From Treponema sp. (lineage in GTDB: Bacteria > Spirochaetota > Spirochaetia > Treponematales > Breznakiellaceae): DNA of 35,431 nucleotides. A model generated the notes under the pieces. It ran no database searches, was not told where the DNA came from, and saw nothing but the letters and a program-made list of their open reading frames with translations. Both the position numbers and the translations under genes were made by a program. The stretch's first letter is position 1, and every line of letters starts with the position of its first letter. Of this stretch, positions 30,094 to 35,431 are shown piece after piece. The stretch is from the NCBI GenBank assembly GCA_031283105.1, contig JAITCL010000056.1:1-35431 (forward strand). Direction: 5' to 3'.

Positions 30094-30252
30094 GCGCCCG
30101 AAAAGGGCTGCCGGAAAGGCTAAAACTATCCCCCGGCAAGCGGGAAGATGGTTAGCATAGGCAAAATGGTACGGGGTTGTCAATGTACACGCTCCGGTGT
30201 CTGGCATCTTTTTCGCAGCCTAGCCGCTTTAGCGGCGTACAGTTACAGTCCT

Positions 30253-30267
30253 GTTAAGCGCAGTGCC
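30253..30267. repeat. Left inverted repeat of the AT-rich cassette
   Basis: GTTAAGCGCAGTGCC pairs with GGCATTGCGCTTAAC at 31127-31141 in 14 of 15 positions, inverted. The end GTTAAGC fits the integron core pattern GTTRRRY. It lies five bases from the stop codon of the enclosed gene, and the change from mixed to AT-rich sequence happens here. Confidence 0.75.
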
Positions 30268-30272
30268 GTATT

Positions 30273-31079
30273 TTATATATTTACTTCTACATCTATTGGA
30301 AAATGATCAGAAAAAACTTTACACTCAAATTTATTAATATTTATATTATCTATATTAATATTATCATAAAATTGTTTATTTACAAAAATATAATCATTTT
30401 GCATATTATAATCAACCATTGTACTTCTTTCATTTTCATTATTATATTTTGTTTTTATACAATCTATAAAATCTTCTTCTAAATAATCAAATAAATCATT
30501 TCCTATATATTTATTAAAAATACCAATATGTGAAAAATTCCTGTTCATATTAAAATCACCTGCTATTATTATCAAATCATTACAATTTGAATTAATAATA
30601 TTTTTAATGAAGGGAATTGTTTTTTGTTTTAATGTTTTATAATACTCAATATTTTGCCTTTCGCTATCATTTTTTATATATTCCATCATTTTATTGTGAA
30701 TATTAATTACTAATACGTTAATTTTATTGAAATTACATTTTGTAAGTAATAAACCCATACCATAATCAAAATAATAAAAAGGAGTCCCATCGGAATTATA
30801 TTGAAAATGCTCATTAAAATTTGAGATTATAACATTACCCCAATTACAATTACTATACAATGGCATATAAAATATTCCATACTTATCATTAAATATATCC
30901 TGAGATGCTTCCTGTAACAACCATATTTTTTTAACATTTTGATTTAAATTATTAAATTCTCTATTTATAATAGATTGTCCCATATTTATCCACCAACCCA
31001 TTTCGACAGAACATTTTTCATTATTACCCCATCTTTTTTTCCATTGATTTATATTCCATGTTCTAACAAGTAATTTCAT
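30273..31079 (-). CDS. Endonuclease/exonuclease/phosphatase-family protein on an AT-rich cassette
   Basis: 268 residues with the full motif set of the EEP (DNase I-like) superfamily: TWNIN at 7-11, LLQE with the metal-binding Glu57, INIHNK with His128, AGDFNM with Asp175 and Asn177, NDYIFV with Asp229 and SDHFP with Asp258-His259. No signal peptide. Members cut DNA, RNA or phosphoesters; the substrate cannot be told. Base and codon use differ sharply from all neighbours: the gene is very AT-rich and full of Asn, Ile, Lys and Tyr, which points to recent transfer. AAGGAATTATTGA precedes the ATG as a ribosome site. Confidence 0.88.
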   Translation of the reverse strand: MKLLVRTWNINQWKKRWGNNEKCSVEMGWWINMGQSIINREFNNLNQNVKKIWLLQEASQDIFNDKYGIFYMPLYSNCNWGNVIISNFNEHFQYNSDGTPFYYFDYGMGLLLTKCNFNKINVLVINIHNKMMEYIKNDSERQNIEYYKTLKQKTIPFIKNIINSNCNDLIIIAGDFNMNRNFSHIGIFNKYIGNDLFDYLEEDFIDCIKTKYNNENERSTMVDYNMQNDYIFVNKQFYDNINIDNININKFECKVFSDHFPIDVEVNI

Positions 31080-31126
31080 TCAATAATTCCTTTTTTTATT
31101 ATAGCATATTATTATGTAACAATCTA

Positions 31127-31141
31127 GGCATTGCGCTTAAC
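31127..31141. repeat. Right inverted repeat of the AT-rich cassette
   Basis: GGCATTGCGCTTAAC, the inverted partner of 30253-30267. Its end GCTTAAC fits the integron core pattern RYYYAAC. It lies ~48 bases before the ATG of the enclosed gene, leaving just room for a promoter (TATAAT-like ATGCTATAAT on the minus strand near 31100). Confidence 0.75.
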
Positions 31142-31241
31142 TCCACATATACGCCATAAAGCGTCATCTATATCCCAAATTTGCATTATATACGCATTTT
31201 ACTCTTCATTGAAAATAATGGGAGAACAGTAAAAAGCAGAC

Positions 31242-35070: not shown

Positions 35071-35073
35071 GCG

Positions 35074-35105
35074 GTTACGGGTCTGTTATGTGCCGTTATG
35101 CCGTA
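35074..35105. other. Boundary sequence resembling the edge of the first AT-rich cassette
   Basis: From GTTAC (35074) through TGTTATGTGCCGTTATGCCGTA-like sequence this stretch aligns, with short gaps, to 30242-30270 next to the EEP gene; shared blocks are GTTAC, TGTTA and TGCCGTA, each followed by TTTAT-rich DNA. Both lie at the 3' side of a minus-strand AT-rich gene. Confidence 0.5.
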
Positions 35106-35128
35106 CTTTATTTTTATACATCTATTAT

Positions 35129-35431
35129 TTATAAAAATATTTTTTGAAATATTATTTCATAAGGATCATCAAAATACTTAAATCCACCTATTTCTTTATA
35201 TCCCATTTTCCTATAAAAATGTTGTGCTTCTTCATTTGATTGTGTCGATGTCAATACATTTTTATACCCTTTTTGCTTCATTTCATTTTCCCAGTATTTT
35301 ATCAATTTTGTTCCAATCCCCACTTTTCTATATTCTTCCAAAAAATAGATCATATTCATAAATGGTATATTATCCCAAAATAAATTATATCTTAACCAAC
35401 CGATTATTTTACCATTATTTTCAGCAACATA
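35129..35431 (-). CDS. GNAT-family N-acetyltransferase, N-terminus cut by the window end
   Basis: The minus-strand frame is open to the right edge, so the ATG at 35359 is internal. The visible 100 residues are the C-terminal GNAT core: GKIIGWLRYNLFWDNIPF, MNMIYFLEEYRKVGIGTKLI with the acetyl-CoA loop RKVGIGT (normally R/QxxGxG/A), and SNEEAQHFYRKMGYKEIG. Such enzymes acetylate small molecules or proteins. The gene is AT-rich, like the EEP gene, and unlike purD beside it, which suggests transfer. Confidence 0.85.
   Translation of the reverse strand, partial: YVAENNGKIIGWLRYNLFWDNIPFMNMIYFLEEYRKVGIGTKLIKYWENEMKQKGYKNVLTSTQSNEEAQHFYRKMGYKEIGGFKYFDDPYEIIFQKIFL

Follow-up and report, generated by a model that had tools for sequence, protein, structure and literature searches.

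The gene and its inverted repeat

The window, which is the whole stretch of 35,431 nucleotides that was analysed, comes from a 2.79-Mb draft assembly of a Treponema species. On its minus strand, a gene taken from the list of open reading frames (30273..31079) encodes a protein of 268 amino acids. The gene is enclosed by a 15-bp inverted repeat with arms GTTAAGCGCAGTGCC (30253-30267, plus strand) and GGCATTGCGCTTAAC (31127-31141), in which 14 of the 15 positions are paired. Both arms fit the R-coded end pattern with 0 mismatches, and they are its sole exact places in the window and in the draft assembly. Between the arms the G+C content falls from about 50% to 16-28%, and this single reading frame fills the space. 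An earlier note on this DNA had described the repeat with its one mismatch, at the edges of a sharp G+C drop around one gene, and both observations were confirmed.

The protein probably has an endonuclease/exonuclease/phosphatase (EEP) fold. Since none of its Pfam matches reaches the gathering score (PF14529, E = 1.4e-4; PF03372, E = 0.016), the EEP identity that the note had assigned is likely, not certain. Among the 98 genomes searched, the protein is present in its own genome only. No relatives were found in viral_contigs or plasmids, and a PADLOC search gave no match.

Restriction to one genome is also what plain horizontal transfer would produce. An ancestral AT-rich gene, or one acquired in this way, would then carry the repeat by chance. 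The 15-bp repeat alone would be doubtful evidence, and it was accepted because attC halves, attI-like sites and paired ends recur throughout the genome. The 46 attC halves, 10 attI-like sites and cassette-specific paired ends described below contradict a chance repeat and leave this explanation almost no credibility. The note had proposed that the lack of similar ends elsewhere in the genome would speak against a cassette; such ends clearly exist.

The trpS locus was used for comparison with relatives. The gene was found in 38 of the 39 genomes of the genus, and 30 trpS loci, including that of the window's genome, were compared. In relatives trpS has other neighbours, the flanks differ by eye, and no empty cassette site is apparent. 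ARAGORN predicted a tRNA at trpS in the genome's own locus only, but the upstream DNA is shorter than 650 nt in four of the 29 other loci. The same bin contains another trpS (G000:C119:4337-5329) with 86% identity, a sign of the roughly 7% contamination.

Cassette features in the window

Read on the minus strand, the gene has the parts of an integron cassette. The 5' end (31124..31141) consists of a crossover-type GTTAAGC, with its G at 31141, and an extended arm with A at position 11 (31131). The 3' end (30253..30270) consists of an R''-type GCTTAAC and an extended arm in which a C faces the A of the 5' end. The note had proposed ends of the GTTRRRY and RYYYAAC type; they are those of a cassette, and the reading of the gene as a captured cassette is near certain.

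Immediately outside the left arm is the 5' half of an attC site (30218-30252). The note had reported no full attC here, which is correct in that the 3' half (L' and R') is missing, but this 5' half was overlooked. It comprises the L'' arm AGGACTGTAACTG (30240..30252, minus strand), made up of an A, GG, one extra base and a 9-nt stem arm and recognised from the 17-mer copies and the structural scan described below, and the first terminal hairpin TACGCCGCTAAAGCGGCTAGGC (30218..30239, minus strand). The order on the minus strand is GGCACTGCGCTTAAC, then AGGACTGTAACTG-TACGCCGCTAAAGCGGC.

At the opposite end, the sequence TAGATGACGCTTTATGGCGTATATGTGGA directly precedes the G of the 5' end. It belongs to an attI-like site whose palindromic core of 29 nt (31142..31170, minus strand) immediately precedes the GTT crossover; the genome has 10 such sites. 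By eye, its upstream arm (31171..31215, minus strand) has weaker similarity to the sites on contigs C166, C101, C110 and C72. The insertion at a 'secondary site' proposed in the note therefore needs changing, as the 29-nt site of the 5' flank is held in common with one beside a recombinase gene on C166. The promoter score near the R' end is low for this cassette, with only 8 of 12 consensus letters.

The note's single cassette describes the EEP gene correctly, but a second cassette is found at the end of the window and dozens of relatives occur in the genome. The second cassette (35072-35431) is AT-rich and lies directly after purD. The L'' part of its attC (35072..35084, minus strand), with four mismatches in the 17-mer, abuts the purD stop codon and is followed by the 3' end (R'', 35085..35102, minus strand) and by a gene for a GNAT-like acetyltransferase, named by eye from its translation and cut by the contig end (35112..35431, minus strand). 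This attC is also shortened, and the 5' end lies beyond the contig.

attC sites across the genome

The 17-mer of the attC 5' half, TAACAGGACTGTAACTG, was found in 46 copies in the genome at up to two mismatches, and the reversed pattern in one. The 400 nt before each copy have 18-43% G+C in 46 of 46 cases. For the 3' half, the partner arm CAGTTACAGCCGGAAC-GTTA gave 25 matches in the genome (control 1). A search for cassette ends at up to two mismatches returned a mixture, with 39 matches against 8 in the control. The pattern TGCCGTAYTTTAT was rejected as chance (28 matches, control 26); one of its matches, at C166:1241, sits inside a transposase.

The two halves form arms in the order R''-L''...L'-R'. 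Their stem has a GG/CC pair and nine further pairs, and the R''-L'' arm carries one extra base. The interior contains a non-complementary spacer followed by a branched terminal structure. This layout is that described for attC in the literature (PMC2727003). Sites were also sought by architecture alone (AAC-N-GG-N-9 paired nt ... CC-5 nt-GTT), which gave 26 matches, compared with 3 in reversed DNA; 25 were kept and L276 was removed as a false match. In the 25 kept sites, both sides have changed at 6 of the 11 stem pairs. The 11-pair L stem, as counted, contains one conserved extra base (A in 20 sites, T in 5). In 22 of the 25 sites the better fold is that of the bottom strand, and in three fold tests the z values were -7.9 for one full site and -4.6 and -1.9 for two other folds. 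R'', L'', L' and R', the extra-helical base, the unpaired spacer and the terminal structure are thus found genome-wide, with the 5' half alone present in the window.

In other genomes, six attC matches were found in G016. Named records with this attC are Treponema sp. and Spirochaetaceae metagenome-assembled genomes (14 stretches, 5 isolates), which, judging from the isolate codes, probably originate from termite guts. The exact attC pattern was absent from viral_contigs, and an Rfam search of loci L070-L072 returned tRNAs only. In recombinase loci of other species (L250, L256, L258, L251 and L157) the L'' arms differ, being ACACGATTAGCGC, AAACGGTAACAGC and others, so that several attC types have one kind of end signature in common.

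Cassette ends and position 11

To define both ends of each cassette, the best upstream GTT-anchored match to the reverse complement of the 3' end was taken for every attC copy. Of 81 candidate rows, 34 reach 14 of 18 paired nucleotides and were accepted as defined cassettes (17 in this genome, 8 in G023, 5 in G016, 3 in G007 and 1 in G031). The other 47 rows were dropped as chance matches or as cases where the 5' end is changed or beyond the contig.

In 33 of the 34 cassettes the ends disagree at position 11, and in every such case the 5' end has A where the 3' end has C. Position 11 had no part in the selection of rows, and other positions disagree in only 0-7 of the 34. The mismatch reported by the earlier note is this conserved disagreement. 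At 14 other positions, the two ends of one cassette agree at 12.7 on average and foreign ends at 6.8, as would be expected if both ends meet in the cassette circle. When folded, the bottom strand has a G.T wobble at this position and the top strand an A.C mismatch, and the A/C difference may be a strand mark. End mismatches away from position 11 have no bottom-strand bias (13 vs 9, p = 0.52). As a control from class 1 integrons, two aadA cassettes only gave end pairing of 11 and 12 of 18 with no disagreement at position 11, and the SIM-2/ereA/catB3 control had no measurable cassette ends.

The behaviour of the ends bears on a further possibility, namely that the 15-bp repeats are the terminal inverted repeats of an insertion sequence or MITE with a passenger gene. 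The EEP unit is AT-rich with an inverted repeat at each end, as such an element would be, but no target duplication abuts it in the sequence. Moreover, the ends are cassette-specific and vary between cassettes with no constant terminal repeat, the conserved L''-hairpin lies beyond one end only, and arrays with shared attC exist. An element of this type is therefore very improbable here.

attI-like sites

The attI-like core pattern was found at 10 places in this genome (control 1) and at 2 in G016 (control 1), while the 9 matches in other genomes are at control level. A GTT follows the core at the same distance in all 12 sites, six of which played no part in building the pattern, and in one of the 9 other matches. 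At C166:23832 the script halted at an earlier GTTA, and the GTT at the fixed distance was seen by eye. An AT-rich cassette follows the GTT wherever the sequence continues; on C101 the contig ends there. The sites on C166, C101 and C110 share about 75 nt and the others the core only, therefore both duplication and the independent choice of similar sites may have contributed.

One site, C166:57685, is located about 0.5 kb downstream of the recombinase gene and before a cassette, and by this position it would be an attI-type site beside the recombinase. A small gene between the two (L072 7158-7469) resembles MNT-type nucleotidyltransferases by eye.

Of 19 attC copies in this genome with a defined 5' end, 12 have a flank that is attI-like or attC. 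The remaining seven, with neither, raise the prospect that an integrase inserts cassettes at many unrelated attG-like sites, the 29-nt site being merely a preferred secondary target. Use of attG sites by an integrase has been described (PMC12901181). Against this, there are 10 occurrences of the attI-like core at a constant spacing, and three of them have at least 75 nt in common, so that we consider such targeting rather unlikely. It would alter the targeting only and leave the cassette reading unaffected.

Gene content and probable fixation of cassettes

In 33 of the 34 defined cassettes the longest reading frame runs from the R' end to attC. A -35/-10 pair of the cassette's own that matches the consensus in 10 or more of 12 letters is found near the R' end in 23 of 34 (shuffles, 11%). 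Cassettes are solitary or in short arrays. In locus L273 (G000:C45, 4320-6742), two cassettes are arranged tail to tail with their attC sites facing; one gene has weak PADLOC matches to DrmC (PLD nuclease) and the other is DUF3800-like by eye. At the start of C166 (L071 1-6500), a stretch of about 4 kb of AT-rich DNA after the transposase encodes an 800-residue protein with P-loop kinase-like repeats by eye, and no attC half was seen there.

The 3' half is missing beside 25 of the 46 attC 5' halves and present beside 19; the other 2 are located at contig ends. A short attC on C94 was counted with the first group, though a GGAACGTTATGC remnant is visible. Copies without the 3' half mostly have ordinary chromosome following, and include the EEP cassette and, by eye, the GNAT cassette of the window. 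The majority of single or terminal cassettes are without it. Loss of the 3' half goes with downstream DNA of normal G+C (16/25 vs 2/19, Fisher p = 0.0005), in a test whose 42% G+C cut was picked after the table was seen and whose attC copies are non-independent. Judged from their sequences, cassettes of this kind, the window's among them, are probably immobilised captures.

A recombinase without I2

The gene beside the attI-like site on C166 (55965-57167) encodes a tyrosine recombinase of 401 amino acids. Recombinases of its family adjoin attC in this genome, G023 and G007. The end signature was found downstream of 10 of 26 loci of the family, and a longer flank added G078, which gives 11 of 26. 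Scans of reversed and opposite-strand DNA gave 0 (in the initial scan with 10 positives). Two of the positive loci, those of G061 and G078, are from outside the family of the window's genome. The signature is missing downstream in 15 of the 26 loci; three of these end within 720 nt, and about 5 kb of other DNA follows in G020, G011, G012, G008, G009, G021a and G021c. No close recombinase was found in G016, where the best match is Xer-like (E = 1.3e-22). In G023 the frame contains an in-frame TGA (L154, G023:C217), though this genome is rich in cassettes; the recombinase may therefore be decayed there.

IntI recombinases contain an additional I2 insertion of about 43 residues, which this enzyme lacks. 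It aligns with IntI4 (2a3v) in two stretches, separated by a gap where IntI has about 42 more residues, and is colinear with XerA with no such gap. A gap of about 43 columns at I2 was found in 16 of 16 family members aligned with IntI1. With model TIGR02249 the recombinase scores 211.5 bits (cut-off 265) in two stretches, compared with 508.6 bits in one stretch for the IntI1 control. The predicted structure is closest to XerA (Z 22.1; IntI, Z 18.6). The recombinase is separate from the genome's own XerC and XerD; the branching of the recombinase tree is poorly defined owing to long branches.

The N-terminal residues, about 90, are predicted to form a small alpha/beta domain (pLDDT 82.6), which by sequence has no match in the PDB. 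Foldseek placed the XPB N-terminal domain among its best matches, weakly (E 0.35-0.37), and VIA gave MutS (domain I, Z 5.9) and XPB (Z 5.7), both weak and below 8. An XPB-DRD or MutS-like fold is thus a lead only, taken from the predicted model. A HARP/SMARCAL1 domain was also considered for this region and rejected: there is no such Pfam match, and the structures are only weakly XPB- or MutS-like.

An ordinary IntI could be missing from the data, which are a draft bin with 94.6% completeness and 7.1% contamination. In that case the cassettes would be canonical ones or orphan attC remnants, and the I2-less recombinase a bystander. The classical attC architecture agrees with this, as does the occurrence of IntI integrons, with integrases transcribed towards attI, in oral, cow and swine treponemes, as reported by Wu et al. 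(2013; PMC3607928). However, no match to IntI was found at E<=1e-40 in the 39 genus genomes, 11 of which have a completeness of 90% or more and a contamination of 5% or less, though the model gives IntI1 its 508.6 bits. In addition, 11 of the 26 loci of the I2-less recombinase have cassettes next to it, including two from another family. A missing IntI is therefore improbable as the explanation. The cassette proposed in the earlier note is borne out by the ends and sites; an integron in the strict sense, with an IntI that has the IntI-specific I2 insertion, was not found in these 39 genomes at that threshold.

Proposed mechanism and significance

The EEP gene very probably belongs, as a cassette, to a system of site-specific recombination that resembles an integron and has an I2-less recombinase from the XerA/IntI branch. 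The system is real and general, integron-like by its sites and no integron by its enzyme. From its position beside the cassettes, it is likely that this recombinase drives their recombination.

We infer the following course from the arrangement of the sites. Once the cassette is a free circle, its two ends would pair over about 18 nt. At position 11, the G.T pair would be tolerated in the folded bottom strand and an A.C mismatch would occur in the top strand, which may help to pick the bottom strand. The recombinase would then join the folded single-stranded attC of the circular cassette to attI-like sites, with the cut at G|TT. This genome has several attI-like sites, with one or a few cassettes behind each, which would account for the scattered distribution of the cassettes. 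Many cassettes have promoter-like sequences of their own and so could function alone at any place. After capture, the terminal attC would usually lose its 3' half, by which the cassette would become fixed and immobile; the EEP cassette would be a fixed one.

A bolder interpretation, which is possible but which we hold only tentatively, is that this is a second solution to cassette capture. Here a Xer-type recombinase without I2 would act on folded attC, its N-terminal domain, weakly similar to the mismatch-recognition fold of XPB-DRD and MutS, would read the bulge or the odd pair, and many dispersed attI sites would replace a single platform. Such a system would occur in two or more families of the order that includes these treponemes. 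If true, it would bear on the puzzle of the origin of attC before I2, as a living intermediate or as an independent answer. According to Escudero et al. (2016), the recognition of attC extra-helical bases by I2 makes the origin of the pair a chicken-and-egg problem (PMC4792948). A natural attC/attI cassette system with an I2-less recombinase would make this origin directly testable, and would offer a rare test case for the working and evolution of integrons. Dispersed cassettes with their own promoters would also provide a route by which captured genes settle permanently in the chromosome. Moreover, integron finders keyed to IntI would miss such systems or score their attC sites as orphans.

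Comparison with known systems

Wu et al. (2013) reported one attI per integron in the treponemes which have them, and none in the two termite-gut species then sequenced (PMC3607928). In the literature searched, with most subscription papers lying outside it, integrons in termite treponemes came up only in that study, and I2-less integron recombinases were not found by title or the start of the abstract.

The system resembles the IntI-based sedentary chromosomal integrons of oral Treponema and Vibrio in its G|TT crossover, in the attI-like site beside the recombinase gene and in the R''-L''...L'-R' order of its attC, which has an extra-helical base and a terminal structure that is long and branched. 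As is described for Treponema integrons elsewhere, the recombinase is transcribed towards the cassettes. It differs from IntI integrons in that the recombinase is without I2, several attI-like sites are found instead of one, the cassettes are dispersed and many have promoter-like sequences of their own, where an integron has a common promoter (Pc) for promoterless cassettes, and the pairing of the ends extends over 18 nt and includes one constant odd position. It may also differ in its extra-helical bases, of which one is visible within the 11-pair L stem and IntI integrons have two or three.

Single cassettes scattered in the genome are also a feature of attG insertions, unlike which 12 of the 19 defined 5' flanks here are attI-like or attC and a conserved attI-like core recurs. 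With XerA, XerC and XerD the recombinase shares a colinear structure with no insertion, XerA being the best structural match, and it is distinguished from them by the extra N-terminal domain of about 90 residues and by its location next to cassettes. Lastly, integration of CTX-phi by XerCD likewise involves an I2-less recombinase using a hairpin (PMC4792948). In contrast to CTX-phi, the recombinase described here is encoded next to its putative sites, and the hairpins are of attC design with an extra-helical base.
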